Assembly: GCA_032622095.1 (NCBI GenBank)
Contig: CP136063.1
Coordinates: 88,763,980-88,827,979, forward strand
Direction of reading: 5' to 3'
From: Siphonodentalium dalli
Taxonomy: Eukaryota; Mollusca; Scaphopoda; Gadilida; Siphonodentaliidae
DNA length: 64,000 bases
In this document: positions 2,774 to 64,000 of the stretch, one piece after another
Layout: the number at the start of each line of letters is the position of its first letter
How positions within the stretch are numbered: position 1 is the stretch's first letter
Made by a program: the position numbers and the translations under genes
Notes under the pieces: generated by a model
Databases searched by the model: none
What the model saw: the letters and a program-made list of their open reading frames with translations, nothing else
What the model was told of the DNA's origin: nothing

Positions 2774-2775
2774 TA

Positions 2776-3880: not shown

Positions 3881-3889
3881 CATATCCGC

Positions 3890-5945
3890 TCGCCATCCGC
3901 GACGCAAACGACACCAAATTTGATTTAATTCATGGTATATCATTAGAGAAAAACGTGTATGAATTCGGTGGAAATTGGTGCCAGCGTTTGCCTCTTTTGG
4001 CATATTTAAACCACTCCCATTAGACTCATGGATGCATGATATACTGGCGATGATTATATATATGTTTGGTGTAATCAGCAACTAAACAAATTCTGAGAAT
4101 AGTTATGACCCATATCTCTCACCCAACCGACACCAATTTGACGTCTTTATATCACACGATGATATTCCTCGTATCACAGAGAAGAATAATATATCAAATA
4201 GTTTATTAAATCAATTGTTGATGCAACGCTGACTCGAACAACGCCATATTGCGAAAGTGATTATGTATTTGTTTGGTGGAAATCGGCAACAAAACTATTT
4301 CACGATATATTTTTAATTTTGCCGACCTCCCCCCTTTCTTCCCCTGACACCAACAGCGTCATTTTATAAAATTTTTACCCTCACCGTTATCTTCCTTGTA
4401 AACAGTTACCCCTCTTAGAACGCCTTGGTGTCATCTCGATTGTACCGCGTAAAGTTATATATAGAACGCACACAGACAGACAGAAAGACAGACAGACAGC
4501 ATGATTTGATTTCTTGTATCATTTGAGAAGAACGTGTCTGAATTTTATGGTAATTAGTACTAAAAATATTTTATATCAGTCTTGGTGACCCTCCCGTCCC
4601 TATTTCAGTATCAAGTTGCCCACACTAAGACTCATTCGAGATTAGAGATGCATATATATGAAATTGGTGAAAATTGGCGAGTATACAAATTCGTATCAAA
4701 TTTAAGGTCCCCATATCTCTCACCCATAGGGCACACATTTGGTGTACCACAGAGAAGAATATGTATCAATCTGGTGGAAATCGGCACTAAACATATAGAT
4801 ATAATTTGTTGTGTCCCTCTTATCTCTATACACCACTGACTCGAATGGCCCAACTTATGACATCCTTAAACCACACGATTATACTCCTGATATCATGGAG
4901 ATGATTGTTTATAAGTTTGGTGATAATCGGCGACTAAACAATTTTTTTTATCAAATTTGATGCCAACCCACACCCCATCTCACAAACAAACAACACCACT
5001 ATGGCGTCTTTAAATCACACGATTAGATTCGTCGTATCTTGGATAAGAACGTGCAATTTGGTGGAAATTGGCGCAAAAAAATAGAGCATCAATTTTGGTG
5101 CCCCTGTCCCTTTCAATGCAACCCTGACTCGAATGAGGCCACATTTGACAGATATAAGCAACACCATTAGACTACCATAGGGATGATTTTGTATAAGTGT
5201 GGTGGCAATCGGCGACTAAACCAATTATTATCAAATTTTGTGCCCACCCCTCCCAATCTCTCAACCAAAAGACAACAATTTGGCGTTGTTAAAGCGTACA
5301 ATTTGATTCCTTGTATAATGAAGAAGAATATATATATCAATTTGGTGGTGATCGGCGCTAAAATTAGTTTTTCAATTTTGGTGCCCCTCTCCCCTTCCGT
5401 GAATCCCTGACTCGAACGACGCCACTTTTAAACAACACCGTTGGTTTTTTCATATCATGGGTTTGGCGTTGTTAAATCGCACAATTAGATTCCTTATATC
5501 ATGAAGAAGAATATATATCAATTTGGTGGAGATCGGCGCTAAAATTAGTTTTTCAATTTTGGTGCCCCTCTCCCCTTCCGTGCATCCCTGACTCGAACGA
5601 CGCCACTTTTAAACCACACCGTTGGTTTTTTCATATCATGGAGATGATTATATATAAGTTTGGTGGAAATCGGCGACAGAAACAAAATCTGCCCCTTCCC
5701 CTCCCGGACACCCCTGACGCAAACTGCGCGACTTTTGCCATATTTAAACCACACCGTTAGATTCCTCATATCATGGGGATCATTATATATAAGTTTAGTG
5801 ACCATCGGCGACAATTGTTTTTTCTGCCCCTCCCCCTTTTCTGCCCCTGACAACAACGACGTCACTTTAGAAAATTCTAACCCCGACCATTATCTTTCTC
5901 GTAAAAAGCTACTCCTAGTAGACCCCTTTGACATCATCTAGATGG
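3890..5945. repeat. Degenerate ~170-bp tandem satellite
   Basis: Roughly a dozen diverged units share the theme ATCA.GGAGA.GATTATATAT, AA.TTTGGTGGAAATCGGCG, then CCCCTCCC, then CTGA(C)ACGA.GCCAC, then TTAAACCACACCGTTAGATT. Two neighbouring units around 5280-5640 are nearly identical, which indicates recent local duplication. ACAG microsatellites sit at about 4469-4498 and end the array at about 5970-5998. The small open frames are repeat artefacts. Confidence 0.75.
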
Positions 5946-11500: not shown

Positions 11501-12081
11501 ATGACCGGATCCCTTCTTGCCTCGGACCTCACGTTCCAAGTCACCTCCCTTCTTCTTCCCTATATCATCATGACCGGATCCCTTCTTGCTTCTGATTTCA
11601 CGTTCCAAGTCATCTCCCTTCTTCTTACCTAGATCATCATGACCGGATCCCTTCTTGCCTCGGACCTCACGTTCCAAGTCACCTCCCTTCTTCTTTCCTA
11701 GATCATCATGACCGTATCCCTTCTTGCTTCGGACCTCACGTTCCAAGTCACCTCCCTTCTTTTTGCCTAGATCATCATGACCGTATCCCTTCTTGCTTCG
11801 GACCTCACGTTCCATGTCACCTCCCTTCTTTCTGCCTAGATCATCATGACCGGATCCTTTCTTGCTTCTGACTTCACGTTCCAAGTCACCTTCCTTCTTC
11901 TTGCCTAGATCATCATGACCGGATCCCTTCTTGCTTCTGACTTCACGTTCCAAGTCACCTCCCTTCTTCTTGCCTAGATCATCATGACCGGATCCCTTCT
12001 TGCTTCTTAAGTCACGTTCCAAGTCACTGTGTCCCCCCTTCTTGCTCAGGTCTCCTTTTAGTGGGTTTCCCGAAGCGCAAA
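8513..12081 (-). pseudogene. Decayed paralogue of the secreted repeat-protein gene (about 50 x 23-residue repeats)
   Basis: On the minus strand, about 50 units of 69 bp encode DLEREVRSKK followed by GSGHDDLGKKKGG. The lead-in (CASGNPLKGDLSKK) parallels that of the intact gene (CASGTPLRGDLSKK). Several lesions are visible. The splice acceptor position (12083-12082) reads AC instead of AG, a TAG lies at 9290-9292, and single-base deletions near 9700, 10547 and 11197 shift the frame. A few units lack a codon. Unit differences are often synonymous in this frame (AGA/CGA, GAA/GAG, CTA GGC/CTT GGA), which supports this reading frame as the ancestral coding frame. No leader exon is found upstream: homology with the intact gene's intron ends near 15110, short of the leader. 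The single-base deletions could be sequencing errors; the acceptor and stop changes are substitutions. Confidence 0.75.
8520..12015. repeat. 69-bp coding minisatellite (array 1)
   Basis: About 50 tandem 69-bp units, each with a GGATCC-type core, are read directly. Units differ at several positions, such as TCC/TAC and AGC/GGC on the minus strand, and the variants recur in patches. That pattern fits past unequal exchange. The array is more diverged than array 2. Confidence 0.95.
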
Positions 12082-13344
12082 GTGCAAAGAACGTTATCAG
12101 TGTATTGTTTCTTGTTTTGCTTCTTGCAAGCGACAGATTTAGACTGTCGACCGTCGAATTTAATTTTTGTTTAGTTCGTCGTCTGTTCGTTCATGTGTGT
12201 CTTTCTAAGATTGTCACTTGTTAGTGTACCATATATACTGTTTTCATATTTCCATTGACTCCGGGGTCACTTACATGTACATGTAACGTGTACTAGCCCG
12301 GCACCAGAGCGATTGTCCTTCTATCGTTTCTATGCGCAGTGTAGGGATTGTGCGTATTATGTATCCTTGGTAACTATGAAATACTTAGACACATAGATGG
12401 GTACACGTGTATTGCAAGCTTTTACCTCATCCGCATGACATGTCACATGGATGAGGCTATTTAGGTCGTAATACATGTTGACGACGTACACATAAAATGC
12501 GTTTTGTCCGGGAGCTGAACGGGTACCCGTGCATTCCCTCTGGATTTAACTTCACCCCACTCATTTTGTTTCGTATTATGTCCTTCAACTTTTAAAGAAT
12601 GTCAACACACACAAAAAATGCTATTCTTGGAGTCCTAGCCCTTTCCAAACACTCAAAAAATCGATTTTAAAGAACGCGATATAAAATTTCACAAAAAAAA
12701 AATCGCAATTAGGATTCTAGTCATAATTTAACAAGAAATGAGCAGAACTGTATACTGTAAGCGTAGCATACCATTACCCATGAATATTCCAACTCATTGG
12801 AACGAAAAGTGGTACTTTGGCTCAAAATGGCCGCCAAACTATGGAACATGGTAGATATTGCCCCAACGTTCCCTGCAATCGCTTACACGTGGGGTTGATG
12901 AGTACAATTGGCCATTCTGCCTTTTATACATTGAATACTAGCATGTCTGATGCACCTTGGTTAATTGTCACAATTGTCACCAGAAACATTGGATTTTTCT
13001 CTCACAAACGTGACATAAATATCGGCAAAAATTAACTTTTCAAGTTTGGACCATTTGTTCAAGTAAATGCATCTATCGTTGGTATGAAAGGTGTGTATTG
13101 TTTGATCTATCTTAAATGTGTCACACTACGGTGTTTATAGACCAAATTATTCAAGATTACTTCCAAAATGGCAATCAAATTTGGTAAAAAGTTGATTTTT
13201 TTTTACATATATCCCGAACATTATTATCTGCTGTCCCTAAAAGGTAGCAAATTGTGACTCACTTGGTTATTATATAAGTTAGTTAGTCAACTGACCACTA
13301 AATGTTCTATTCTGGTTGTGCCAGACAAATTCATTTTAAAGTTG

Positions 13345-17389: not shown

Positions 17390-17620
17390 TGGCAGTGGTC
17401 GACCAGCGTAGTAAGGGGACTGAACTTTGTGAGACCAGCCTAGCGAGGGACTGAACTACGTGAGACCATCGTGACAGGGGACTGAACTTTGTTAGACCAT
17501 CGTAGCGAGGGAGTGAACTATATGAGACCAGTGTAGCAGGGACTGAACTATGTGAGACCAGCGTAGCGAGGGACTGAACTACGAGAGACCATCGTGACAG
17601 GGGACTGAACTATGTGGAAT
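17390..17620. repeat. ~31-37-bp tandem repeat (GACCAGCGTAGCGAGGGGAC)
   Basis: About seven diverged units carry the theme GACCAGCGTAGCGAGGGGAC then TGAACTATGTGA. Three more units lie at about 18056-18150 and two at about 32363-32430, in each case next to the same downstream block. Confidence 0.8.
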
Positions 17621-46111: not shown

Positions 46112-46662
46112 TATGTAGATGGAGTTAAACCTCACATCAGTTTGTTGGGGATTTGGACCTTGACTTGGGACCTTTGGTTTTTAACGCAACAAATGCGAGT
46201 ACACCTTATACACAAATTTCTGATGTAGCCAGAGTTTTTCTTGGATAATATGAGTTTGAAGCCTGCTTACATTTCAATATGTTGTCAGTTTTGTATTGTC
46301 TGCAGCAGAACTCGGCGCGTTGAAGCAAAAGTTATAAGAGATAAAATGTGTACGTAACGAGACTATAATACAAATGAAAAAATAAATTGAGGGAGGGGTG
46401 GGCATTACAGGGAACTAAGGGTTGAACCGATATAAATTTGTAGAGCGATAACGACCAATGTTGACATATTATGCATCTCAACTCTACTGTTGCAACAAGG
46501 TTATAAAATACTGACACATAGATAACCTCTCCGTATATTGGTGTTCTTTTTCAGAATGACATCACATTTCTATCTCAAGTTTTATTACTTTCCGTATAGA
46601 TATAACAGTTGAACGCATATCAAATTGGCCGAAAACCGGGTTCTAAAACCGGATGAAATAGA
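46112..46662. other. Unassigned sequence upstream of the retrotransposon
   Basis: It may include the 5' UTR of the non-LTR element, but its 5' boundary cannot be placed. No first open frame with a nucleic-acid-binding domain was seen. Confidence 0.35.
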
Positions 46663-48609
46663 ATGTACGCAATGCCTGTTCTAATTCTTGCGTTGCTAAT
46701 TGATTTATGCCTCCATCATATATATTGTTATTGCCTGATAGCCCAACCCTCCCCAATAAAACACTATACGATCACATACCACCTCTTGCCCACCGGTTTG
46801 CCTATAACTGGGATCGGCCCTTTGTGGCCGAATCCTATTGTAATGATTAATATTATGACTTATCGGGCAAGAGTTGGTGTGTTCTATACGCGTGCAGTAA
46901 GTACAAAGGGAAAGAAACTAAATATGTTGTGTTCACTTAGCCTTCTGTCATTCCTTGCACTACGTTCCATTGGTATAACGGAAAACTTGACTTTCCTCAT
47001 TGTTCTGAAGTATTATATGCTGAATAACGATAGTATTCTTCCCAAATATATTTTTGATAGGAATAATTTCAGAGTCACTGCAAACTTTAGCAAACTTTCC
47101 TTCAATGTTGCAATAAACACAATATCTGGATCATCACTAGTAACTTTATCACACTTATGTCGTGCAATTTATGAAATAATGAAAAGTTTATTAATGAAAT
47201 CTGGGAGCGTTCACCCAAATCCTGGACCAAACGCACATACCCTATCGATTATGTGCCTCAATGTACAACGCCTATTGCCAAAGATTGATACCATTATTGC
47301 CGAATGTCAAAATTATGATATACTTGCATTTACTGAGACCAGGCTATCAGATTCAACCTCGGACGAGGAGTTGACTATACCGGGATTCAACAGCCCTGAA
47401 CGACTTAATCGTCCTACTCTCGGTGGAGGTATTGCGATTTATGTCCGCAACTCACTTCATTTCAAAAGGCGAAAAGATATCGAAATACTCGGCCTTGAAC
47501 ACATGTGGTTAGAAATCTTCACGCATACGAACAGTTTCCTTTTTGGAACCTTCTATAGACCTCCGAATTCACCCGTAGAACTCTGGGATAAAATATACAC
47601 TTCACTTGATGGAGCGATGGACACAAAAGAATCCAGAAATCACACAATTGTTACCGGAGATTTCAATTGTAACCAACTGTGCACTGAACCAAAACAAACA
47701 AGATATATATGTGGGAAGTTTGGTATGAAACAGCTTATAGAACAACCTACCTACTTCACTGAAAATTCCCGATCACTCTTAGACCTGTTTTTTTCAAATA
47801 AACCGGATTTTGTACAGTCGTGTGAAATTTTAGATCCTTTGATTGCAGAATTGGTTCGATATCACTGCCCAATCGTACTTACTTTAAATATTTCTAAAGG
47901 GACATCGAACCGATTCATCAAAAGAAGAATATGGAAATACAACGAGGCAAATTTCAGTGCAATGAATGAAGAATTGCAAACGTGGGGCTCCGAGAATCCG
48001 TTGAAACATGTGAATTATACAGAACTTGCGACGGTGATAACTAACAAAATAAATGAAGTCGCGATAAAACACATTCCAAACAAATTTGTTACAATTAGAA
48101 CAGATGAACCCGAATGGATGTCAGGCCACATTCGTCTCCTTATGAGGCAACGCAAACGATTATATGTCAAAGCAAAAAAGAATACGACATTAAATGCATG
48201 GGCTAAATATAAAACCAAGCGAAATGAAGTAATATCATCTATCAGAACTGCCAAGCGACTGGAAATGGAAAAAAAACAAAAACTCCTCGGCAGTTCTTTT
48301 ACTGATTCCTCAGTGTGGTGGAAAACTCTTAATAGACTCATGGCCCCAGACCAAAAACCTATTCCGTCACTTTGCGAGGACAACAACGTATACACAGATA
48401 ACAATTCTAAATCGGAAATATTAAATAATTATTTTTGCTCTACATCGTCCCTGCCCGAATCTGACAAAAAAGAACTACCGCTATTATCTAGATCTAAAAA
48501 TTGTACATTGAAACTTATTAAGATTACACACAAAGATGTATTGGAATCCCTGACAAGTGTTAAAGTAGCAAAGGCCAGTGGCGATACGGTATCAGCCCAA
48601 AAATTCTAA
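46663..48609 (+). CDS. Retrotransposon endonuclease-containing frame (first part of the broken polyprotein)
   Basis: This 648-codon frame begins with about 185 residues of partly hydrophobic sequence without a known domain. An NPGP motif (residues 186-189, in SGSVHPNPGP) follows, where related elements carry 2A-like ribosome-skipping sequences. An AP-endonuclease-like domain runs from about residue 194 with TETRLS, GGGIAIYVRN, FGTFYRPPNS, TGDFNCN and LLDLFFSN. The usual final SDH motif reads RYH, so activity is doubtful. The first RT block starts (KVAKASGD), but a frameshift ends the frame near 48590. The start codon is uncertain, since the element's true N-terminus is unknown. Confidence 0.75.
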   Translation: MYAMPVLILALLIDLCLHHIYCYCLIAQPSPIKHYTITYHLLPTGLPITGIGPLWPNPIVMINIMTYRARVGVFYTRAVSTKGKKLNMLCSLSLLSFLALRSIGITENLTFLIVLKYYMLNNDSILPKYIFDRNNFRVTANFSKLSFNVAINTISGSSLVTLSHLCRAIYEIMKSLLMKSGSVHPNPGPNAHTLSIMCLNVQRLLPKIDTIIAECQNYDILAFTETRLSDSTSDEELTIPGFNSPERLNRPTLGGGIAIYVRNSLHFKRRKDIEILGLEHMWLEIFTHTNSFLFGTFYRPPNSPVELWDKIYTSLDGAMDTKESRNHTIVTGDFNCNQLCTEPKQTRYICGKFGMKQLIEQPTYFTENSRSLLDLFFSNKPDFVQSCEILDPLIAELVRYHCPIVLTLNISKGTSNRFIKRRIWKYNEANFSAMNEELQTWGSENPLKHVNYTELATVITNKINEVAIKHIPNKFVTIRTDEPEWMSGHIRLLMRQRKRLYVKAKKNTTLNAWAKYKTKRNEVISSIRTAKRLEMEKKQKLLGSSFTDSSVWWKTLNRLMAPDQKPIPSLCEDNNVYTDNNSKSEILNNYFCSTSSLPESDKKELPLLSRSKNCTLKLIKITHKDVLESLTSVKVAKASGDTVSAQKF

Positions 48610-48611
48610 AG

Positions 48612-50385
48612 AATTGCGCAACGGCCCTAGCAAGTCCTATGTGCTATATATTTAACGAATTGTTAAAACATTCCTATTTCCCTGATGAGTGGAAGAGAGC
48701 AAACGTTTGTCCCATCTTTAAAAAAGGAGATCCAAGTATGCCATCGAATTATCGTCCGATTTCATTGCTAAGTTGCCTCTCAAAAATATTTGAGAAATGT
48801 ATCTTTCGATATTTATCAAAATACTTATACGAAAATAAGCTCCTAACAGATTTACAATCGGGTTTCACTCCAAATGACAGTACTGTATTCCAACTAACAG
48901 ACATATATAATTATCTTATTTCATCTTTAGACGAAGGAAAAGAAATAAGGTGTCTTTTCTGTGACATCAGCAAAGCTTTTGATAAAGTTTGGCATAAGGG
49001 ATTATTGTCCAAATTAAGTAACCTAGGTGTGTGTAAAAACACATACGACATTTTGAAAAATTATTTGGAAAATCGACAACAAAGAGTCATTTTGGAAACT
49101 ACCCAGTCGTCTTGGAAATCTGTAGAATCTGGTGTCCCCACAAGGGTCAATACTGGGTCCCCTACTATTCTTGATATACATCAATGATATAGCAGACGAT
49201 ATAACAAGTAATATCCGACTTTTTGCAGACGATACCTCCATTTATCTAGCAGTAGAAGATCCCATAATGGCTGCTGACGTCCTAAACAAAGATATATCGA
49301 AAATACATGATTGGTCTAACAAATGGCTTGTTAAATTTAACCCATCCAAAACTGAATCCCTCTTAGTTAGCAGGAAAGAAATTAAACCTAGCCACCCCCA
49401 TCTCAAAATGGCAAATCAGCCAATATGCGAAGTAGCGACACATAAACACCTAGGTCTAACCTTTAGTTCCGATGGTAAATGGAAATACCATATCGCAGAT
49501 ATTGAAAAACGAGCTTATAGTAGGCTGTCCCTGCTGAGGAGGCATAAATTTAACCTTGACAGGAGGTCACTAGAAAGAATATATTTATCATTTATTCGTC
49601 CTGTCCTGGAGTATGCCTCCTCAGTTTGGGACAACTGCAGCAACGAAGAAGCTAATGAATTAGAAGAAATCCAATACGAAGCCGCAAGAATCGTAACTAG
49701 CGCGACAAGAAGCTGTAGTAAAGCGGGCTTGCTCCACGAAACTGGGTGGGAGACACTTACGAATAGACGCCGAAAAACCAAGCTAACTCAATTTTTCAAA
49801 ATGGTGAAAAAGTCAACACCCGCCTACCTATACATATATGTTCCCCCTATATCAGGGAGTCTAACAAATTACGACTTCAGACCTAAAGACATGAAACCGG
49901 TTTTTTGTAATACTGAATCATATAAAAAATCCTTTTTACCTGCAGCTGTGAGTCTATGGAATGATCTACCACCGGAGGCTAAAAATTGTGAAACCATATC
50001 GGACTTCAAATCTTTTCTTAATACTGACCTCGTCGTGAGCCCCCGTTACATGGAATTTGCTTACACAAGACGAAGTCAAATTTTTCATTGTCGACTACGA
50101 CTAGGGTGTAGCAATCTGAACTACGACTTATATCTCAATCATTTGCAAGACAATCAATATTGTATATGTGGCGAAATTGAAACAGTATCACACTTCTTGC
50201 ACTATTGCCCAGTCTTTGAAGCCGAGAGAGATATATGTCTCAGCAACCTTAATAATTTGGAAACAAAAACACTCTTAGAAGGTTCAAAATCACTTCCCTT
50301 GTCCAAAAACATTGAGATATTCGCTAACATTCAGAAATATATAGAACTAACTGGCAGATTCAAGCCATATTATGCACAGACCTGA
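48612..50385 (+). pseudogene. Retrotransposon reverse transcriptase and C-terminal zinc-knuckle region (frameshifted)
   Basis: The frame resumes with ISPKILKNCATAL and carries YRPISLLSCLSKIFEKC, SGFTPNDSTVFQL and DISKAFDKVWH (the first catalytic Asp). One extra C in a CCCC run near 49137 then shifts the frame inside the GVPQGS motif. The next frame (49132-50385) carries GSILGPLLFLIYINDI, FADDTSIY (the catalytic Asp pair) and the thumb region. A C-terminal block follows with FHCRLRLGCSNLN, CICGE and HFLHYCP, a zinc-knuckle arrangement common in this group. The enzyme would reverse-transcribe the element RNA at a nicked target. Few lesions suggest a fairly young copy. Confidence 0.85.
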
Positions 50386-50774: not shown

Positions 50775-50992
50775 ACGACAGTGTTAACGTTTCAGCCAAA
50801 TTCACTGACTTGAAGCCTGCAGGCCACTACAGTGATGTTTACCCAGCTAGATTGACACCAGTTGATCACGAAAATGCAAGAAAAATCATAGGTCATGCGT
50901 TTACTTTTAAAAATAAATCCACAAGTGTGCGACAGGGCTATCCCATTGCCAAATTGTATCTGGACAAACCCAGAAATATAGCAGCTAGTTAA
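50775..50992 (+). CDS. Candidate terminal exon of an unrecognised gene
   Basis: A good acceptor (GGTTTCCCACAG at 50774) opens a frame that stays open for 72 codons to TAA at 50990-50992. It reads DSVNVSAKFTDLKPAGHYSD, then LTPVDHENARKIIGHAF, then KSTSVRQGYPIAKLYL and a C-terminal KPRNIAAS. The composition looks like a real soluble protein and the charged residues are well mixed. Two other copies (17.6 and 32.4 kb) share the acceptor and most of the sequence but are broken by stops and indels. I do not recognise the family and found no upstream exon. It converges on the repeat-protein gene, 205 bases from that gene's stop. Confidence 0.35.
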
Positions 50993-51087
50993 ATAATATT
51001 CCCACTCACAAAAATCCATTCCCCCAATAATTCACCAGTTTAAATTATTTAGAGATGATGAACAAATCAAATAAATAATATTTCACC

Positions 51088-51093
51088 TTTAAT
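51088..51093 (-). terminator. ATTAAA polyadenylation signal of the repeat-protein gene
   Basis: ATTAAA on the minus strand lies about 104 bases past the stop codon at 51197-51199. This is the common variant of AATAAA; no AATAAA was seen nearer on this strand. Confidence 0.35.
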
Positions 51094-51196
51094 AACACAT
51101 CATAACATAACATGACATAACACGTCCCGATTTTTAAACCGGACGTTCAAAACGTGCTCTCATTTGTATTGCTATGCATATATACTTATACATGTA

Positions 51197-54100
51197 CTAC
51201 ATGCGTGAACGTTCCAAGTCGCTGTGTTTTCCGCTGTGGTCATCGTGACCGGATCCCTTCTTGCTTCGGACCTCACGTTCCAAGTCGCTGTGTTTTCCGC
51301 TGTGGTCACCGTGACCGGATCCCTTCTTGCTTCGGACCTCACGTTCCAAGTCGCTGTGTTTTCCGCTGTGGTCATCGTGACCGGATCCCTTCTTGCTTCG
51401 GACCTCACGTTCCAAGTCGCTGTGTTTTCCGCTGTGGTCACCGTGACCGGATCCCTTCTTGCTTCGGACCTCACGTTCCAAGTCGCTGTGTTTTCCGCTG
51501 TGGTCATCGTGACCGGATCCCTTCTTGCTTCGGACCTCACGTTCCAAGTCGCTGTGTTTTCCGCTGTGGTCATCGTGACCGGATCCCTTCTTGCTTCGGA
51601 CCTCACGTTCCAAGTCGCTGTGTTTTCCGCTGTGGTCATCGTGACCGGATCCCTTCTTGCTTCGGACCTCACGTTCCAAGTCGCTGTGTTTTCCGCTGTG
51701 GTCATCGTGACCGGATCCCTTCTTGCTTCGGACCTCACGTTCCAAGTCGCTGTGTTTTCCGCTGTGGTCATCGTGACCGGATCCCTTCTTGCTTCGGACC
51801 TCACGTTCCAAGTCGCTGTGTTTTCCGCTGTGGTCATCGTGACCGGATCCCTTCTTGCTTCGGACCTCACGTTCCAAGTCGCTGTGTTTTCCGCTGTGGT
51901 CATCGTGACCGGATCCCTTCTTGCTTCGGACCTCACGTTCCAAGTCGCTGTGTTTTCCGCTGTGGTCATCGTGACCGGATCCCTTCTTGCTTCGGACCTC
52001 ACGTTCCAAGTCGCTGTGTTTTCCGCGGTGGTCATCGTGACCGGATCCCTTCTTGCTTCGGACCTCACGTTCCAAGTCGCTGTGTTTTCCGCCGTGGTCA
52101 TCGTGACCGGATCCCTTCTTGCTTCGGACCTCACGTTCCAAGTCGCTGTGTTTTCCGCTGTGGTCATCGTGACCGGATCCCTTCTTGCTTCGGACCTCAC
52201 GTTCCAAGTCGCTGTGTTTTCCGCGGTGGTCATCGTGACCGGATCCCTTCTTGCTTCGGACCTCACGTTCCAAGTCGCTGTGTTTTCCGCCGTGGTCATC
52301 GTGACCGGATCCCTTCTTGCTTCGGACCTCACGTTCCAAGTCGCTGTGTTTTCCGCTGTGGTCATCGTGACCGGATCCCTTCTTGCTTCGGACCTCACGT
52401 TCCAAGTCGCTGTGTTTTCCGCTGTGGTCATCGTGACCGGATCCCTTCTTGCTTCGGACCTCACGTTCCAAGTCGCTGTGTTTTCCGCTGTGGTCATCGT
52501 TACCGGATCCCTTCTTGCTTCGGACCTCACGTTCCAAGTCGCTGTGTTTTCCGCTGTGGTCATCGTGACCGGATCCCTTCTTGCTTCGGACCTCACGTTC
52601 CAAGTCGCTGTGTTTTCCGCTGTGGTCATCGTGACCGGATCCCTTCTTGCTTCGGACCTCACGTTCCAAGTCGCTGTGTTTTCCGCTGTGGTCATCGTGA
52701 CCGGATCCCTTCTTGCTTCGGACCTCACGTTCCAAGTCGCTGTGTTTTCCGCTGTGGTCATCGTGGCCGGATCCCTTCTTGCTTCGGACCTCACGTTCCA
52801 AGTCGCTGTGTTTTCCGCTGTGGTCATCGTGGCCGGATCCCTTCTTGCTTCGGACCTCACGTTCCAAGTCGCTGTGTTTTCCGCTGTGGTCATCGTGGCC
52901 GGATCCCTTCTTGCTTCGGACCTCACGTTCCAAGTCGCTGTGTTTTCCGCTGTGGTCATCGTGACCGGATCCCTTCTTGCTTCGGACCTCACGTTCCAAG
53001 TCGCTGTGTTTTCCGCTGTGGTCATCGTGACCGGATACCTTCTTGCTTCGGACCTCACGTTCCAAGTCGCTGTGTTTTCCGCTGTGGTCATCGTGACCGG
53101 ATCCCTTCTTGCTTCGGACCTCACGTTCCAGGTCGCTGTGTTTTCCGCTGTGGTCATCGTGGCCGGATCCCTTCTTGCTTCGGACCTCACGTTCCAAGTC
53201 GCTGTGTTTTCCGCTGTGGTCATCGTGGCCGGATCCCTTCTTGCTTCGGACCTCACGTTCCAAGTCGCTGTGTTTTCCGCTGTGGTCATCGTGGCCGGAT
53301 CCCTTCTTGCTTCGGACCTCACGTTCCAAGTCGCTGTGTTTTCCGCTGTGGTCATCGTGACCGGATCCCTTCTTGCTTCGGACCTCACGTTCCAAGTCGT
53401 TGTGTTTTCCGCTGTGGTCATCGTGACCGGATCCCTTCTTGCTTCGGACCTCACGTTCCAAGTCGCTGTGTTTTCCGCTGTGGTCATCGTGACCGGATCC
53501 CTTCTTGCTTCGGACCTCACGTTCCAGGTCGCTGTGTTTTCCGCTGTGGTCATCGTGACCGGATCCCTTCTTGCTTCGGACCTCACGTTCCAGGTCGCTG
53601 TGTTTTCCGCTGTGGTCATCGTGATCGGATCCCTTCTTGCTTCGGACCTCACGTTCCAAATCGCTGTGTTTTCCGCTGTGGTCATCGTGACCGGATCCCT
53701 TCTTGCTTCGGACCTCACGTTCCAAGTCGCTGTGTTTTCCGCTGTGGTCATCGTGACCGGATCCCTTCTTGCTTCGGACCTCACGTTCCAAGTCGCTGTG
53801 TTTTCCGCTGTGGTCATCGTGACCGGATCCCTTCTTGCTTCGGACCTCACGTTCCAAGTCGCTGTGTTTTCCGCTGTGGTCATCGTGACCGGATCCCTTC
53901 TTGCTTCGGACCTCACGTTCCAAGTCGCTGTGTTTTCCGCTGTGGTCATCGTGACCGGATCCCTTCTTGCTTCGGACCTCACGTTCCAAGTCGCTGTGTT
54001 TTCCGCTGTGGTCATCGTGACCGGATCCCTTCTTGCTTCGGACCTCACGTTCCAAGTCGCTGTGTTTTCCGCTGTGGTCCTCGTGACCGGATCCCTTCTT

Positions 54101-54579
54101 GCTTCGGACCTCACGTTCCAAGTCGCTGTGTTTTCCGCTGTGGTCATCGTGACCGGATCCCTTCTTGCTTCGGACCTCACGTTCCAAGTCGCTGTGTTTT
54201 CCGCTGTGGTCATCGTGGCCGGATCCCTTCTTGCTTCGGACCTCACGTTCCAAGTCGCTGTGTTTTCCGCTGTGGTCATCGTGACCGGATCCCTTCTTGC
54301 TTCGGACCTCACGTTCCAAGTCGCTGTGTTTTCCGCTGTGGTCATCGTGACCGGATCCCTTCTTGCTTCGGACCTCACGTTCCAAGTCGCTGTGTTTTCC
54401 GCTGTGGTCATCGTGACCGGATCCCTTCTTGCTTCGGACCTCACGTTCCAAGTCGCTGTGTTTTCCGCTGTGGTCATCGTGACCGGATCCCTTCTTGCTT
54501 CTTACGTCACGTTCCAAGTCAATGTGTCCCCCATTCTTCTTGCTCAGGTCTCCTCTTAGCGGGGTTCCCGAAGCGCAAA
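51197..54579 (-). CDS. Exon 2 of a secreted 22-residue-repeat protein gene (about 50 repeats)
   Basis: This exon starts after a strong acceptor (TTCTTTGCAG, AG at 54581-54580) in phase 1. It joins the leader exon at 60314-60353 to give the signal peptide MRIYLIAVLIALAVCASG, with cleavage likely after VCA or ASG. The mature start contains PLRGDLSKK. About 50 copies of DLEREVRSKK plus GSGHDDHSGKHS follow, ending DLERSRM-stop. The predicted precursor is about 1,140 residues. Each repeat balances acidic and basic residues and adds three histidines, so the protein should be soluble, disordered and possibly metal- or mineral-binding. KK occurs once per repeat and could be a prohormone-type cleavage site. 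No known family is recognised. Other frames are also open because the 66-bp unit is a multiple of three. This frame is chosen for its leader, its splice sites and its match to the pseudogene at 8513-12081. Confidence 0.75.
51205..54505. repeat. 66-bp coding minisatellite (array 2), highly homogenised
   Basis: About 50 tandem 66-bp units differ at very few positions. Variants come in duplicated blocks: CGCGGTGG then CGCCGTGG occurs at about 52023/52089 and again at about 52221/52287. Three successive GTGGCCGG units occur at about 52760-52892 and again 396 bp (six units) later. This is direct evidence of unequal exchange or slippage in multi-unit steps. Confidence 0.97.
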
Positions 54580-56099
54580 CTGCAAAGAACATTATCAGTG
54601 TAGTGTTTCTTGTTTTGCTTCTTAAAGCAACATACTTTGACTGCCGAATTAATTTTGTTTAGTTCGTCGTCTGTTCGTTCATGTGTGTCTTTCTAAGATT
54701 GTCACTTGTTAGTGTACCAAAAATACTGTTTTCATATTTCCATCGACGCCGGGGTTAGTTACAAGTAAAAGGTAACGTGTACTAGCCCGGCATCAGAGCT
54801 ATTGTTCTTCTATCGTTTCTATACGCAGTGTAGGGATTGTGCGTATTATGTATCCTTGGTAACTGTGAAATACGTAGACACGTAGATGTGTGCACATATA
54901 TTACAAGCTTTTGCCTCATCCACATGACATGTCACGTGGATTAGGCTATATAGGTCCAAACAAATTTTGACGACGAAACATTTAAAGCGCTTTTGTCCGG
55001 GAATTGATAGTGTTCCCCGACAGGCCCTCGGGATTTAATTTCATCCCACTCATTTTGTTTCGTATTATGTCCTTCAACTTTTAAGCAATGTCAACTCAAA
55101 AAAAGTGGCAAAGAAAAAGATGGCGTCCACCATGGCCGCCGTTTTCAGATAGGCACTCAGTCAGTTTGATGCAAATTGTTTAGCTAAGTCATAATGCCAC
55201 CTTTATAAGGCGAAAGAGGAACTCCCCATCCAATATGGCCACCCGAAGTGGATAATAGGACGTTTTTTCACTAATATCTTCTAGAGCAGTTTCTGAAGTT
55301 TGGAACTGGTTGAGAATTATTGTGACTTTATTTTGTATTTTGTATGTTGACTGATCATTGGAGCAAAGATGTACGCAATTATTTGGGTACTAGCCCTTTC
55401 GATCTCTCAAAAAATCGATTTTACAGAACGCTATACAAAATTTCACCAAAAAAATTGCAATTAGGATTCTATAGTCATATTTTAACAAGGAATGAGCAGA
55501 AATGTGTAATGTAAGTTAGGCATACCATTACCCATGAATATATATTCCAACTCATTGGAACCAAAAGTGTTACTTTGGCTCAAAATGGCCGCCAAAACAT
55601 GGAACATGGTAGACATTGCCCCAACGTGCCCTGCAATCGCTTACAAGTGGGGGTTGGTGTCTAAAATTGGCTATTCTGCCTTTCATACATTGAATACTAA
55701 CATGTCTGATGCACCTTGGTTAATTGTCACAAATGTCAGCAGAAACGTTGGATTTTTCTCTCACAAACGTGACATAATTAACGGCAAAAATTCACTTTTC
55801 AAGTTTGGACCATTTGTTCAAGTAAAATGTAACTATCGTTGGTATGAAAGGTGCTTATTGTTTTGATATATCTTATATGTGTCATACTACGGTGCTTGTA
55901 GACCAAATTAGTCAAGATGACTTCCAAAATGTCAACCAAATTTGGTAGAAAGTTTATTTTTATTTTTATATATATCCCGAACTTTATTATCTGCTGTTCC
56001 TAAAAGGTGGTAATTTGTGACTCACTTGGTTATTAAATATGTTAGTTAGTCAACTGACAACTAAATGTTCTATTCTGGTTGTCATTTAAAAGTTGCAAT

Positions 56100-57660
56100 A
56101 TGGATATAACGAGAGTAGCTACATAGTCATATATATGTTGTTCTTGTATATATGGAGTGACCGTGTGTTGATGGGTGAGATGAACAAGTGTACCTTGGTG
56201 GTTGTACTGGAACAGATGGGTGTATATGTATACATGTGTTGTCCCTATGATCATGGGTGGGGTGTATGTATAAATAGGGAGTTGTTGTATGGCTAAATCA
56301 TATGTAATGTGTATATGTGTACATGGAATGACTGTACGGCCAATATTGAGGTATATATGTATACATGGAGTATAATGGATGGTCATTGGGATAGCGTGTG
56401 GCTATATAGGGAGTGCCCTTGCGGTAATGGGTGTGGTGTATATTTATATATGTCGTGGGTGTATTGTCATTGGTGGGTGTATAGGTATACAGGGAGTAGC
56501 TGTATGTTCATGGATGGCGTGTATGAGTATATAGCGAGTTGCTGAATTGTGAGGTGTATATGCACGTATGGAATATATGAGTGCTCATGTGTGCGGTGTA
56601 TTGGTATATCTGGAAGGACTGTATGGCCATTGGTGATGCGTATATGTATACCTGGAGTGACTGTGGTCATGGGTGGGGTGCATATGTATATATCGAGTGG
56701 CCAAATGACCATGGGTGTGGCGAATAGGTATACAGGGAGTGACTGTACACTGTTATAAATATCACTAAAGTTTACAGAAGCTTCTGGTGTAAAATGGGAT
56801 CTTTACATCTCCGGAGACCAGCGGCTAATATTGCCAGCAGAAGCTGCTGTAAAATAAGTGCCATGATATCAAATTGTCAGACCCGAAGACTGGAATCGCC
56901 ATTTTGTATCCACAGAGTTTGTGCAAACAACAGTCAGATAAATATTCGTCGACAAGACACAACAGGTAAGTGCACCATATATACATATATACACCGATAA
57001 CCGCGGGCGATTACATTTAAATGTGATTAATACTGTTTTAGTTAGTTTGTGCTGGCATGGCAGCATTGTGAATTTGTGTTTAAAATCCCCGAATGGTATT
57101 GAGCAGCTAGATAACCTGTGTGTGGCGAATTTACCTGACAAGAGTTGGGAAATTAGTGATACACGGCTATATTATTCAAACACCTTCAAAGATTAAATAT
57201 TTCATTATCACAGTACTTCAGTTATGTTGTAACATGTTACAACATAACTGAAATACTGTGATAATGAAATATTATAATATATTATTACTGTTATAAATAT
57301 CCGTAAAATGATACGGCAGAAAGTACTGGCAATTATGGGAATAACAGTTTCTGCAGTAATTTTGACAGTCTTCCGTAAATATATAATTAACGGAAAAATC
57401 GTAAAAAATACAGAGATCAGTAATTTTTTACGGTTTTTCCGTTAATTATATATTTACGGAAGACCGTAAAAATTACAGCAGATTCTGTTGGTCCCATAAT
57501 TGCCAGTACTTTCTGCCGTAACATTTTACGGATATTTATAACAGTGTATGGTTAATGGTGAGGTGAATGTGTGTACAAGGAGTGACTGCATGATCATGCG
57601 AATGTGGTGCATAGGTAAACAGGGAGTGATTGTATGGTCATGTGCCAGGTGTATGAGTAG
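56100..57660. repeat. Degenerate ~55-65-bp satellite, split by an insertion
   Basis: It is the same TATGTATAC/GGAGTGACTG satellite as 13896-14670, here interrupted by the element at 56748-57546. Open frames within it are artefacts. Confidence 0.7.
56748..57546. mobile_element. 799-bp TA-flanked inverted-repeat element
   Basis: The ends CACTGTTATAAATAT and its complement are inverted, with TA on each side. The duplicated locus near 14566 has the uninterrupted sequence GAGTGACTGTATGG with a single TA, so this is a proven filled/empty pair. Inside lie a ~70-bp hairpin (about 57190-57275, centre CATGTTACAACATG-like) and a ~260-bp palindrome (57289-57546) built on ACGGAAAAACCG-type arms. It is non-coding, and TA targets fit a Tc1/mariner-type MITE. 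Confidence 0.9.
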
Positions 57661-57893
57661 ACCATATATGGAATTCATGAATATTCATGAATTCCATATA
57701 CGGAGTGCACCTCCAGAACTTTTACCCGCGGCACTTAAAACGCGGAACGATGGATCCACTATGGCCGCGACGTAGTAGACCATGCCTGCATGTGAGGATA
57801 ATTTAGAGCTGGCAGCGATAATGAACTTGCTATGTAGTATTACATATGTTTCATGTTTAATAATAATAATAAAGAAACAAGAGAGCGAAGTTC

Positions 57894-58948
57894 TACGGTG
57901 GCTGGATGAGGACATGGGAAATTTTATTTTTATCTCGTTTAAACGAGATAACTATCTCGTTTAAACGAGATAGCAGATGGGAAATTTTATTTTTATCTCG
58001 TTTAAACGAGATAACTTATCTCGTTTAAACGAGATCAGAGATGGGAAATTTTATTTTTATCTCGTTTAAACGAGATAACTTATCTCGTTTAAACGCGATA
58101 GCAGATGGGAAATTTTATTTTTATCTCGTTTAAACGAGATAACTTATCTCGTTTAAACGAGATAGTTATAATACAACAGTTACTAGTGGCCAGTCCAGAC
58201 GGTTGCACCGGGAATGGATATGGAACAACTTGTACCCACCCACCACCCCATCCCGCCACCCATAGTATCTTATGCGCCGCAGGCGCTCGTATATAGGTGG
58301 TATACCGAAACACCACCCCATCCCATCACCCATAGTATATTGTGCGCCGCAGGCGCTTGTATATAGGTAGTTACACACCCACCACCCCATCCCGCCACCC
58401 ATAGTATCTTATGCCCGCATGCGCTCGTATATAGGTAGCTACCCACCCACCACACCATCCCATCACTATGGGTGACGTGATGGGTTGGTGGGTGGGTACA
58501 ACCTATATACGAGCGCCTGCGGCGCATTGGATACTATGGGTGATGGGATGGGGTGGTGGGTGGGTAACTATGCTTATATACGAGCGCCTGCGGCGCACAA
58601 TATACTATGGGTGAAGGGTGGGTAACTACCTATATACGAGCGCCTGCGGCGCATAAGATACTATGCGTGGCTGGATGTGGTGGTGGGTGGGTAACTACCC
58701 ATATACGAGCGACTGCGGCGCACAATATACTATGGGTGATGGGGTGGGGTGGGGTGGTGTTTGGGTACCACCTATATACGAGGGCAACCGTCTGGACTGG
58801 CCACTAGTAACTGTTGTATTATAACTATATATCTCGTTTAAACGAGATAAAAATAAAATTTCCCATCTGCTATCTCGTTTAAACGAGATAGTTATCTCGT
58901 TTAAACTAGATAAAAATAAAATTTCCCATATCCTCATCCAGCCACGTA
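57894..58948. mobile_element. 1,055-bp foldback element with repeat-filled arms
   Basis: The ends TACGGTGGCTGGATGAGGA and its near-complement are flanked by a 6-bp direct repeat AAGTTC (57888-57893 and 58949-58954). The empty site in the duplicated copy reads GAGCG-AATTTC-CCATTT near 14920. The outer arms are ~62-bp units carrying the palindrome ATCTCGTTTAAACGAGAT, four on the left and about 1.5 on the right. A ~42-bp single-copy arm pair (about 58165-58206 and 58784-58826) follows. The core is ~65-bp units with GCGCCTGCGGCGC in opposite orientations. No transposase is encoded. Confidence 0.85.
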
Positions 58949-59110
58949 AAGTTCCCATTTAAGACAACACAATATACGTTTTCCAAACAATCGCGCATTA
59001 TTCCGTTTCTGAATCAGGAACTTATGTGAATAAGCGAGATCACTTAGTCGCTACCATATATGGTATCCATCCAACCCATTTCGCGGTTTAAGTGCTACAG
59101 GTCAAAGTTC

Positions 59111-59642
59111 TGGATTAGCATTCCATATATGGAGTTTCGAATATTCGTGAATGTGCGGAACGGGGCTGGATAGATTCAATATGGTAGCGACTCAGTTGTC
59201 TCGCTTATACAGATTGCGTAATGGCTGCTCTCGTCCGAAGATTGTGTTCGAAGTGGGGATATTTTATAACTAGAACAGACCTCAATGCATCTTTCTGGAA
59301 CTTATAATGTTTGTGGAAAGGTATTTCATGTATTTATCCACCTATTTCGATGCCGGAAAAAAACAAAAGACATGTGCCTCCAAGGGACGGTCACCAAATG
59401 TGTTTATCTGGCCAGGTTTGTCAGCAACTGTTGCTATCTTGGACATCTTGTCCGTGTCGGTAGTTCCACAGGTCCCTGGCACAATATGTCTTTGGGTGGT
59501 GGGAGTCTATTGTGCCAAGGACCTGTGACTGTGCGTGCCGATAATGCATGCGTCTTACTAAAAGACATGAGGCCGGATTTAGGGACTAATTGTGTGATAA
59601 ATGCATTTAGGTCACACTTGCCAGAATCAAGATTAGAATTAG
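59111..59642. other. Intron segment between the homologous block and the terminal repeat
   Basis: It contains a third partial copy of the GCGGAACGGGGCTGGATAGA inverted-repeat arm (about 59155-59200). A 203-codon plus-strand frame (59285-59896) crosses into the terminal repeat without a recognisable domain. Nothing here is called a gene. Confidence 0.35.
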
Positions 59643-60313
59643 TCGTGGATTGTACCCTTTGGAAATCTGCTGTGGTATATATGTCAGTCGCCGAATATTC
59701 ACGCTTGGAATTTGTGCAGGAGTTTTACAGGGTTCTCGGCTTTGGAATGAAAGTTAATTCGCAGTATACCAATGATCAAGGGCATCGTTATAGGGTGTGG
59801 AAAATTACGCCCGTGGTAATTACAACAAATGCCATAACTATGTTGAAAATTGGCGGTCGGAATCCAAATTCGAACTTGACCTGTATTTTGGGCTAATACA
59901 CGCACGTATACCAAATGTCATTCGATTCAGTTCAGACTTACTAATGTTATCATCCGAAAACGAAAATTGAGGGCCACGAGTCGGGTTAAAATTGGCGGGC
60001 GGAACCCGAATTCGAAATTGACCTGTATTTTGTGCTAGTAAACTCACATACTAAATTTGATTCCATTCAGTTGCAGGAAACTATCTAAACTTATTATCCG
60101 GAAACAAATAGTGAACGGATGTACGAACAGACGTCTCGACGGACGGACCAATAACATAATACGTCCCGTTTTTTTTAAAATGGGCATATATATAAAACGG
60201 TGCCTTCACTTAGTTTAAGCATTGCCCAGCAAATTATTTTCACGTTATTAAATTATTTTGTGTCCAAGCTGCTATAATGTATATATAATTATGATATTGC
60301 TAGTATAACTCAC

Positions 60314-60353
60314 CTGCTAAGGCTATGAGCACGGCAATCAAGTAGATCCTCAT
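60314..60353 (-). CDS. Exon 1 (signal-peptide leader) of the secreted repeat-protein gene
   Basis: The ATG at 60353 (A at -3) opens MRIYLIAVLIALA plus the first base of a valine codon, and the exon ends at 60314 before GTGAGT. A positively charged second residue and an unbroken hydrophobic core are classic for secretion. The phase-1 junction matches the exon 2 acceptor and completes VCASG, the expected signal-peptidase region. The same lead-in residues (CASG-P-L-GDLSKK) are kept in the dead paralogue. I inferred the join from splice consensus, phase and sense of the product; there is no transcript evidence here. An identical exon lies at 672-711. Confidence 0.7.
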
Positions 60354-60401
60354 CTTTCTTGGTGAACAGTGTTTGTTGTTTGCTCCCTCCGCGTGTAGTA
60401 A

Positions 60402-60409
60402 TATTTATA
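60402..60409 (-). promoter_or_regulatory. TATA box of the secreted repeat-protein gene
   Basis: TATAAATA on the minus strand begins 56 bases upstream of the start codon, implying a start site near 60378 and a 5' UTR of about 25 bases. A strong TATA box with a short leader is common for abundantly expressed, tissue-restricted secreted products. Confidence 0.6.
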
Positions 60410-61872
60410 CAGGCAAATATACGGAAATAGCAAAGGGAATAACCACGGTTACTGCGCATCGCACCTGGCGGAAGGACGAACCCGACTGACACAGGAAACG
60501 AACGTGTTGTAATTATGAAAATTAATAACCATCTGTATTTTATGCAAGCATGTAAATTAAGATTTTTGTGTTGTGTGAAAATTCACTTGACGAGAGTTCA
60601 AATTCAACGATGAACTGTATCGGTAAAGACCGTGGCCAGGTAGACACATGTAATCTAATGTGGATCAACGGACACAAACGAAAACCGGAAGTATTATGGA
60701 GTCCGAGGCGAGGAATTCTTTTCTCAAAGTTTGCAGACACTTTCTGACACCATTTTTCTGCAAATAAACACATTTAGACACCACTTCGAAACATGTAAAG
60801 GTAAGTGAATATTTCGTCACTAATATTATCAGTTAGAAGCAGTTGGCATTACTTTATTACTCTATCTCGAGATATCGGCCGTTCGACGCAATTTCAAATT
60901 CTGTTCCGCAGATTGTCATTCTATTTCACATTCCATCCCATCCCGCAGATTGCAATGTCCCGTTGTTTTGGCAAATGGGTCACATGCTAGACACAACCTG
61001 ACCATGGGGAAAATATCCAGGTTTTCTGGACCTGAATGATGCTGAATTGGATACCCCCAGTATATTTTGTAAAGAGGTGCATGTCCAATCTGTGTTAACA
61101 TACACTCAAGAGACATACTGACATACTGAGTCAATTGCAATGTCATTTTTAAATGCCCGTTTTGAAGAAAAAAAACAGAACGTATTATGTTATTGGTTGT
61201 TACTTTCGTTGTAACTTCTGTTGTCCGTTCGCTTTTTTCTCCGTTTCCAGATGATAACTTTAGTTTGTCTAAACTTAATGGAAAGAAATTTGGTACGTGG
61301 ATTTACTAGCACAAAATACAGGTCAATTTCAATTTCGGGTTTCGCCGGCCAATTTTCACCAGAGTTACGGCCCTTTTTGTTGGAATTTTTACTCAATTTT
61401 CGTTTCCGGATGATAACCTCGGTAAATCTGAACTGAATGGATTGAAATAAGGTATTTGAGTTTACTAGCCCAAAATACAGGTCAAGTTCGAATTTGGGTT
61501 CCACCCGCTATTTTTTGCCGGAGTTATGGTCCTTGGTTTCCGGATACAAACTTTAGTTTTAGTTGCCTGTCTGTTTTCAAATTTTGTATGTAGATTATAC
61601 AAATGACAATACAGGTTAAGTTCAAATTTGGATTTGGTCTGCCCATTTGTGCCGAAGTTTGTGGTCCTTGTCGACTTTGGCGATTATTTTGGTTTCAGGG
61701 TGATAACTTTAGTTTAGTTATCTGATTGTTTTCAAATTTGGTAAATGGATTATTCATATGAAAATATAGGTTAAGTTCGAATTTGGGTTCCGTCCACCTA
61801 TTTTAACCGGAGTTATGGTCCTTGTTGACTTATAGTTTGACGATTATTTTGGTTTCCGGGTGTCTGTTCGTA

Positions 61873-62415
61873 CTAAAATCAGCTAACATATTGGGATAGC
61901 GAGATGCTAGTTTTAGTACGAGAACGCCCCGTTACCATTTGTATGACATGGTTTACGCGTTAGCGACCAGCTCACATAAAACCACAATTAAATATAATCA
62001 AATATCACAATTGTGACAATAAATGGGTTTATTCCATAGAAGACATGATATTTGTTCTGAAGACCACAACAGTTGTCAAGTTAAAGGGGTAATTTAATGA
62101 GACATTTACCGTAGTGTTGATATATTTATAAAAGTATGCGTACTCAATTGACCTCACAAAGTGACATCGGCATATTCCGGTGAAAACATTCTAGCAATCT
62201 TAAGGTAAATATAACAAAAACCATGTGGTCGTAAATTGAATTAATTCTATAACTTATTACCTGGTAATTTGTAAATTTAAATTTGCATATATATTGCGAG
62301 ACGTTCTGTGTAAGAACTAATAAGTAATATAGGACCACTTACAAATACAAATGGCAATGGGCCTTCTCGTATTAAAACTAGCATTTCGCTATCCCAATAT
62401 CTTTGCTGGTTTTAG
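61873..62415. mobile_element. MITE family D, copy in the right terminal repeat
   Basis: It is the exact duplicate of 2231-2773, including the TA flanks. Confidence 0.7.
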
Positions 62416-64000
62416 TATATACTAGCAGGGTTACCCGGCGTTGCTCAGGTTAATGCGATGAGAAACCCTCTGTATGCTGTGGATATTTGTTGGGGATAGA
62501 GAATGCTTTTGCTTAAAAGTGTTACACGTTTTCTCATAAATGGTATATTCAAATAGCATAATAAAACATGATTATTACGGTCATGGGATATAAGTAGTGG
62601 CTCACCTTGTCAATTGTCATTCTGTTTGTCGTGATTAATCTGTTCCAACAATAATGAAGTATGTATTTTTATACAACTGCGTATACATTATACGTTATAA
62701 TATGATACATGAACATCACAAACACATTAGTTCGATAAAAGATGATAATTGGGTTTTAAATATTAAGATGTATCAATCAATTTAGTGGGTTGAACTAAGT
62801 TCTCGAGGACACCTGGCTATCTACATGAAGATACAGATGTTTCAAAAAAATTCCAGGTGCTCCTCTGTTCATGGTGCTATATATGGCTAAATATTCTCTG
62901 TTTAAACGAAATGTTGATGCGCATAAATATTAGCTACATGTGCCAGACACAGAGCGAGATTTTGAGTTGTTTATGTCAGTCGAGGAATCTGTTATAAAAC
63001 CCTTGTCAGATGTGCAGTATTGGAAGGATCCTGAAAAGTCTTATGCTACTAACTGCATTTTCTTGTATATCAGAAGAAACTATATTTGACTGCACACTGT
63101 GACCACTATTTTTGAAGAGGCCTTCCATATCTCTTGACAAATTGTAACTTTTTTGTGGAAACTGTGTTGAATGGAACAGACTCAATTTTATTATAATATA
63201 TATGCAATCCTCTGACGGTTCGGGGTCTCTCAGTTTGCACGAATATATGTATCTCTTCAATAGAATGATAAATATACGTTTAATGCTTCTTCTATGAATC
63301 TCTTTTTGCTAGATCATTTCGTGAATGCCCTGATTGCTATTCCCATATAAATATGACAGTTAAGAAGATATAATTGTTCAAGTGACTTAAGTGGGTCACC
63401 ATATGTCGGGATTGTGAAATGTGAACGTCCAAAACTACTTAAAATGATATGGAGATGGCCTGGGTGACTGTATATAACTTGTATGTGGATAAAGGCGAAT
63501 AGCAATCTTATCAATGAAAGTGCATATCCGCTCGCCATCCGCGACGCAAACGACACCAAATTTGATTTAATTCATGGTATATCATTAGAGAAAAACGTGT
63601 ATGAATTCGGTGGAAATTGGTGCCAGCGTTTGCCTCTTTTGGCATATTTAAACCACTCCCATTAGACTCATGGATGCATGATATACTGGCGATGATTATA
63701 TATATGTTTGGTGTAATCAGCAACTAAACAAATTCTGAGAATAGTTATGACCCATATCTCTCACCCAACCGACACCAATTTGACGTCTTTATATCACACG
63801 ATGATATTCCTCGTATCACAGAGAAGAATAATATATCAAATAGTTTATTAAATCAATTGTTGATGCAACGCTGACTCGAACAACGCCATATTGCGAAAGT
63901 GATTATGTATTTGTTTGGTGGAAATCGGCAACAAAACTATTTCACGATATATTTTTAATTTTGCCGACCTCCCCCCTTTCTTCCCCTGACACCAACAGCG

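Follow-up and report, generated by a model that had tools for sequence, protein, structure and literature searches.

A candidate gene for a secreted, strictly repetitive protein in the scaphopod Siphonodentalium dalli and the multicopy family to which it probably belongs

Does a long tandem array with an open reading frame in a mollusc genome encode a protein and, if so, of what kind? The question is raised by a 64,000-nucleotide stretch of Siphonodentalium dalli DNA (GenBank assembly GCA_032622095.1, contig CP136063.1, forward-strand positions 88,763,980 to 88,827,979), hereafter the window, which is part of contig C3 in a genome of 2.23 Gb assembled in 9 contigs. An initial annotation, made from the letters of the window, had proposed on its minus strand a single, undescribed two-exon gene for a secreted protein. 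Our analysis suggests that the window probably holds a coding gene for a 1,140-residue secreted protein of extracellular material, one of about 20 members of a lineage-restricted family that are probably in working order. The proposed gene is made up as follows (window positions):

60409-60402, minus strand: TATA box TATAAATA, 56 nt 5' of the ATG
60353-60314, minus strand: coding part of exon 1, 40 nt, MRIYLIAVLIALA plus the first base of a Val codon (phase 1); predicted start of the signal peptide
60313-60308, minus strand: splice donor GTGAGT
60313-54580, minus strand: phase-1 intron of about 5.7 kb, with palindromic repeats inside
54589-54580, minus strand: splice acceptor TTCTTTGCAG
54579-51197, minus strand: coding part of exon 2, 3,383 nt, beginning VCASGTPLRGDLSKKNGGHIDLERDVRSKK and continuing with about 50 units of 22 residues, DLERSRM and a TAG stop
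54527-51209, minus strand: 66-bp tandem array, consensus DLEREVRSKKGSGHDDHSGKHS, 50.3 copies, 98% matches
51093-51088, minus strand: polyadenylation (poly(A)) signal ATTAAA, 103 nt 3' of the stop

The TATA box, exon 1, GTGAGT donor, phase-1 intron, TTCTTTGCAG acceptor, repeat exon and ATTAAA were all found where the initial annotation had placed them, and its count of about 50 repeats of 22 residues agrees with 51 unit anchors in the array, every one spaced 66 nt from the next. From the start codon at 60353 (minus strand), the joined frame reads MRIYLIAVLIALA-VCASG-TPLRGDLSKKNGGHI, followed by about 50 units of DLEREVRSKKGSGHDDHSGKHS and the terminal DLERSRM, 1,140 residues in total, with a low-complexity repeat domain evident from tandem-repeat and unit-spacing analysis. 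The signal sequence, MRIYLIAVLIALAVCASG, has a mean Kyte-Doolittle hydropathy of 3.07 over residues 3-15. A start codon just 5' of the acceptor in the window copy (MFFAVCASG) is not favoured, as related copies on contig C6 and those of type B (see below) are without that ATG. Within the intron, arrays of the palindrome TATCTCGTTTAAACGAGATA occupy window positions 57914-58165 and 58871-58912 and belong to a larger inverted repeat at about 58038-58932.

In such an array, an open frame is weak evidence: three further frames of the same array are also open, each for more than 1,100 codons. We therefore dropped the open frame as an argument for a gene and sought independent support, and paralogues elsewhere in the genome back the proposed strand, frame, structure and secretion signal. 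A 201-nt query covering the promoter and exon 1 had 21 genomic matches, on C2, C3, C4, C5 and C6, and a diverged exon-1 region used as query returned the same 21 loci and none beyond; as the genome searches scored the best candidates only, the family may be larger. Thus, what had been taken for a single gene does look like a gene, yet not a single one: it is one of about 20, with 21 copies of exon 1 on five chromosomes. The GTGAGT donor is present in all 21 copies and exon 1 is in frame in 20, reading MRIYLI(A/V)VL(I/L)ALA; the remaining copy, L011 (C4:89.48 Mb), is put out of frame by a 2-nt insertion, and no exon 2 lies near it among the exon-2 matches of the genome searches. Only 4 of the 40 exon-1 columns vary among the in-frame copies, 2 of the 4 changes being silent. 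When exon 1 of the window is set against that of four copies from other subfamilies, 37-39 of the 40 nucleotides are identical, and in three of these four comparisons exon 1 is more similar than every other neighbouring pair of 20-nt blocks (in the C4 comparison, one upstream pair exceeds it by one base). Of the first 20 intron bases, the type B copy still has 18 identical, whereas the C4 and 30-residue copies have 9-10. The TATA box TATAAATA stands 55-56 nt 5' of the ATG in 18 of the 21 copies.

The repeat exon is tied to exon 1 throughout the family. With a query spanning the acceptor, exon-2 starts were located at at least 23 places, and TTTGCAG followed by TTTGCGCTT occurs at 20 of the 21 exon-2 starts listed, the exception being a broken copy in the window with TTTGCAC; the acceptors of L036 and L037, checked separately from these 21, are also CAG. 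All 20 in-frame exon-1 copies are followed on their own strand by a repeat exon, at intron distances of about 3.8-40.7 kb (median 8.3 kb), the pairs being assigned by nearness. No exon 1 goes with three of the exon-2 starts, which are those of L038, of the window copy at 12 kb and of L032, the duplicate of that window copy. Five more arrays (L040 and L047-L050) have no recognisable acceptor in the sequence examined. In total, 28 arrays were compared, of which L048 and L049, 15 kb apart, may be one broken locus.

Presence of exon 1 and integrity of the array go together. Among arrays with exon 1, 18 of 20 are open from the acceptor to within one unit of the array end, compared with none of the 8 arrays without it (p = 1.4e-5, a value overstated since the copies are related; L047-L050 were examined in part). 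In the other two exon-1-bearing arrays, a stop interrupts the frame after 5 of 45 units (L028) and after 36 of 84 (L045). We replaced an earlier count of frameshifts by unit spacing (1 of 20 versus 8 of 8) with this read-through count, because, at the extreme end of each of the open arrays L041-L043, a single spacing is not divisible by 3 and one unit lies beyond the stop. One broken array lies in the window itself:

8513-12190 (array 8513-12081), minus strand: broken type B paralogue, acceptor AG lost, stops, three 68-nt spacings

No exon 1 for this paralogue was found in the genome exon-1 search, and its duplicate L032 has identical spacings and the same stop, with the AG retained.

The subfamilies have in common the unit core DLER(E/D)VR(S/Y)KKGS and differ in the remainder of the unit:

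Type A, on C3 and C6: 22-residue unit
Type B, on C3: 23-residue unit DLEREVRSKKGSGHDDLGKKKGG
C4 subfamily, on C4: 22- and 25-residue units mixed
30-residue subfamily, on C5 and C2: 30-residue unit with HDDHHGGHKGSGHGGHS
C2:119.8 Mb: 25-residue unit
C2:136.2 Mb: 22-residue unit
C5:40.5 Mb and C3:180 Mb: 24-residue unit

The 18 open proteins range from 1,140 to 2,812 residues, the type B copies L026 and L030 being open for 1,937 and 1,728 residues. Poly(A) signals recur at similar places. Of the 18 open copies, 12 have ATTAAA or AATAAA 85-109 nt past the stop, and 5 others, L041-L044 and L046 of the 30-residue subfamily, carry an ATTAAA farther on, at 342-394 nt. Within the former set, AATAAA is 85 nt past the stop in L026 and L030, and ATTAAA is at 108-109 nt in L025 and L033 (type A) and in L036 and L037 (C4), and at 103-108 nt in the other six type A copies, including the window gene. 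The ATTAAA of the window sits within a dispersed repeat whose near end is at about 51096, some 100 nt past the stop; the signal claimed there nevertheless stands, given the ATTAAA at 103-109 nt in other type A copies. This dispersed repeat (window 50980-51096) had 883 first-look candidates genome-wide, 40 of which were scored.

Selection on the proposed frame was assessed from differences among units, with each distinct unit variant counted once per pool and expectations derived from observed transition and transversion rates. Five pools of exon-1-bearing arrays were formed, namely type A (8 arrays), type B (L026 and L030), C4 short units, C4 long units and the 30-residue subfamily (7 arrays including L045), with L041-L045 entered over the part of the array first obtained. 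Pooled, silent, replacement and stop variants numbered 110, 200 and 1, against 75.9, 223.2 and 12.0 expected, indicating silent excess (p = 1e-5) and stop avoidance (p = 8e-5), with replacement-to-silent ratios of 0.36-0.77. Silent changes are in excess in all five pools, significantly so alone in the C4 long unit (p = 0.0015) and the 30-residue subfamily (p = 0.007), and not in type A, the pool of the window (21 versus 16.6, p = 0.14), type B (p = 0.051) or C4 short units (p = 0.15). The other frames of the same strand had 68 silent variants versus 74.5 expected and 66 versus 83.9, with 10 stops versus 7.9 and 18 versus 13.7; two of the three opposite-strand frames had 73 versus 91.1 and 66 versus 82.0. 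Ser is retained across a difference between AGC and TCC codons among subfamilies. The case that the window frame is more than chance is thus made by the family, through its conserved exon 1, the paired repeat exons, and the pooled silent excess and stop avoidance.

Constraint is unevenly spread along the unit. Of 1,218 units taken from the 18 open arrays (L041-L043 in part; L045 and L028 excluded), every one has Arg 7, 1,216 have Arg 4 and 1,203 have the Lys-Lys pair. Arg 7 has no replacement variants versus 7.3 expected, and 6 silent ones (p = 7e-4 before correction for 16 sites), whereas in the broken set, composed of the 8 arrays without exon 1 and L028, 4 replacements were seen versus 7.7 expected. 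In groupings made post hoc, the basic residues R4, R7, K9 and K10 together have 18 replacements versus 36.4 expected, and the acidic D1, E3, E5, D15 and D16 have 55 versus 52; K9 and K10 singly are not significantly constrained.

What kind of protein would this be? The mature window protein contains 257 Lys and Arg against 252 Asp and Glu, in line with the charge balance first noted for it, together with 150 His (13%), no Cys and no aromatic residues, and its calculated charge is +18 at pH 7 and +131 at pH 5.5. L039 is exactly balanced (459 and 459) and the C4 protein L036 slightly acidic (275 and 323). His accounts for 13-20% of types A, C4 and 30-residue, reaching about 20% in the last, with Asp adjoining His; clusters of the HDDHH type are present in the C4 subfamily and in the 30-residue one. 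The predicted structure of a 126-residue stretch, computed with no alignment, has a few short helices, a mean predicted local distance difference test score (pLDDT) of 54 and a predicted template modelling score (pTM) of 0.13, too weak for a fold search. The product is most likely a bulk-secreted, charge-balanced, histidine-rich matrix protein, a putative structural or metal-binding material. Each unit would alternate a charged, possibly helical DLEREVRSKK with the flexible Gly/Ser/His/Asp stretch GSGHDDHSGKHS. The protein would be made in bulk by gland or epithelial cells, enter the secretory pathway and do its work extracellularly, as a disordered material of repetitive build and balanced charge. 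Because the near-equal numbers of basic and acidic residues and the 13% His leave it near neutral at pH 7 and strongly positive at pH 5.5, it may be stored in soluble form in acidic granules and, on release, undergo gelation, coacervation, or metal or polyanion binding. A bulk secreted material would accord with the many copies and the TATA promoter, with a unit whose length varies and with residues that are for the most part weakly constrained, and the copy number suggests dosage.

Searches of known families are consistent with the initial description of the repeat as belonging to none, within Pfam, PDB sequences and PMC full text. Stretches from four proteins (one each of types A, B, C4 and 30-residue) had no Pfam match above the gathering cut-off and two below it (Filament, E 0.09; HK97-gp10_like, E 0.0054). 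The type A stretch had no PDB sequence match at E up to 1, the 30-residue stretch had one at E 0.85 that we read as chance, and eleven repeat strings had no match in the PMC full-text papers searched. The family thus appears to be of the secreted, repetitive, low-complexity kind and to belong to no named family. Secreted repetitive low-complexity-domain proteins of shells and hard parts, such as KRMP and shematrins, resemble it, in the portions of the reports available, in signal peptide, lineage restriction, modular repeats, multigene organisation and fast repeat turnover, and differ in that their reported units are mostly of about 10 residues rather than 22-30 (PMC4897951, PMC4944945); the family is also set apart as a His/Asp/Lys/Arg polyampholyte with no Pfam match. 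Also comparable are the silk-like proteins selected by SilkSlider, which are secreted, repetitive and probably disordered; the available text gives as criterion an 80-residue stretch with at least 25% Gly (PMC4944945). The window protein falls short of this (best 80 residues 18% Gly), and of 10 family proteins two of type B (26-29%) and four of the 30-residue subfamily (30-31%) pass, whereas the four of types A and C4 fail. As described in the accessible part of their report, the nereid jaw proteins Nvjp-1 and Nai11527 are likewise secreted, rich in His and Gly and members of a paralogous family, and that part does not mention a strict 22-30-residue unit for them; its criterion for Nvjp-1-like proteins is at least 8 His per 20 residues or 10 consecutive His (PMC13120676). 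At most 3 His per 20 residues occur in the window protein, and only L041 (8 of 20) among the same 10 proteins passes. Squid beak histidine-rich proteins are described, in the text available, as disordered and His-rich with a possible phase-separation mechanism, the window protein differing in being highly charged and without aromatic residues (PMC6884462).

The window also bears on how fast such arrays change:

1-4358 and 59643-64000, no strand: ends of a tandem segment with a 59,642-bp shift, 4358 of 4358 bases identical

The duplicated end includes exon 1 of the next family member (window about 638-838), and around the broken paralogue 3948 of 3951 bases are identical at the same shift. In these otherwise near-identical 59.6-kb segments, unit anchors number 51 in the window array and 124 in that of the neighbour L031, the order of variants indicating that L031 holds an extra repeated 24-unit block and 49 further units. 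Array length thus appears to change far faster than single bases, barring collapse or duplication of sequence in assembly, and the arrays are, judging from their sequence, homogenised and resized via unit duplication and deletion. The identical ends represent either a true recent duplication or an assembly duplicate.

Several observations weigh against a working gene for a bulk matrix protein. The signal peptide is predicted from hydropathy and the -3/-1 rule for signal-peptide cleavage, and otherwise by eye; the exact TATAAATA was not found in the three type B exon-1 copies L005-L007; and L039 has no poly(A) signal within 400 nt of its stop. The third opposite-strand frame is somewhat enriched in silent changes (102 versus 86.0 expected), which may be explained by third codon positions common with the proposed frame. 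The broken set has the same silent excess (107, 192 and 9 versus 74.9, 220.9 and 12.3), which we take as variation gathered while the arrays were still coding, so that the excess by itself is no proof of present function; stops alone separate the two sets, with 1 versus 12.0 expected in exon-1-bearing arrays and 9 versus 12.3 in broken ones. Type B proteins are net basic (575 Lys and Arg versus 410 Asp and Glu) with 4.4% His, and Arg 7 is held more tightly than a pure bulk polymer predicts. That the array is a non-coding satellite or a chance open frame, a thought encouraged by its several open frames, is very improbable in view of the conserved exon 1 and splice sites, their pairing with the array, and the silent excess and stop avoidance of the proposed frame. 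It is also rather improbable that, in a family otherwise real, the gene in the window has no function or was duplicated in assembly: the neighbouring segment does match at the ends to the base and closely around the broken paralogue, yet array length differs between the two segments by 73 units, their broken paralogues are distinguished by 3 bases, including one at the splice acceptor, and no signal looked for is missing from the window copy.

Multi-copy neuropeptide and other peptide precursors have a signal peptide, tandem peptide units and basic residues in each unit, and the constraint on basic residues is the reason that we keep a precursor as the main rival explanation, tentative and improbable though it is. 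Cutting at R-S-K-K in each unit would free up to about 125 copies of a His/Asp peptide of about 20 residues. A dibasic site in nearly all units, the unvarying Arg 7 with its relaxation in the broken set, and a constraint on basic residues that the acidic ones do not show speak for it, as does the G-K-K-K of type B, which we take to resemble an amidation plus dibasic site. Nonetheless, P1 would be Lys, furin prefers Arg there, the two lysines are not significantly constrained singly, type A is without G-K-K-K, and the would-be peptide differs among subfamilies (22, 23, 24, 25 and 30 residues). Compared with precursors as we know them, the family has far more copies, a Lys-Lys site and a unit that varies among subfamilies. 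The basic cluster could equally bind a polyanion, and its constraint would fit either a processing site R-x-K-K or such binding. A fuller version, a peptide factory of about 20 genes, each with 46-127 tandem copies released at R-x-K-K with its unvarying Arg and with dose set by array length, is unlikely; if true, near-identical gene copies differ by dozens of peptide units. A more specific form of the matrix protein, compatible with the general one, would bind metal or mineral as organic matrix in a hard part such as a shell, tooth, jaw or spicule; this is a tentative possibility of rather low probability. It draws on the 13-20% His of three subfamilies with Asp beside His and HDDHH-type clusters, and on the secreted repetitive low-complexity proteins that, in the part of the literature available, shell matrices commonly hold (PMC4897951); the low His of type B and its weak clustering in the window protein tell against it.

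Elsewhere in the window, three overlapping open frames on the plus strand at 46657-50385 are probably a decayed non-long-terminal-repeat retrotransposon, with an FADD that we take to be a reverse-transcriptase-like motif, and a 31-bp tandem repeat of about 7 copies at 17401-17616 has no tie to the gene that we could see.

Read as genes for secreted matrix proteins, these loci would enlarge the set of secreted repeat proteins that serve animals as building materials by a family for which no relative is recognised. The family comes with built-in controls: besides intact genes it has broken copies, as well as near-identical neighbours whose main difference is array length. It is therefore a good system for measuring how coding tandem repeats expand, contract and keep their frame. 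Its strict repeat would be easy to produce and to test as a material or metal binder.

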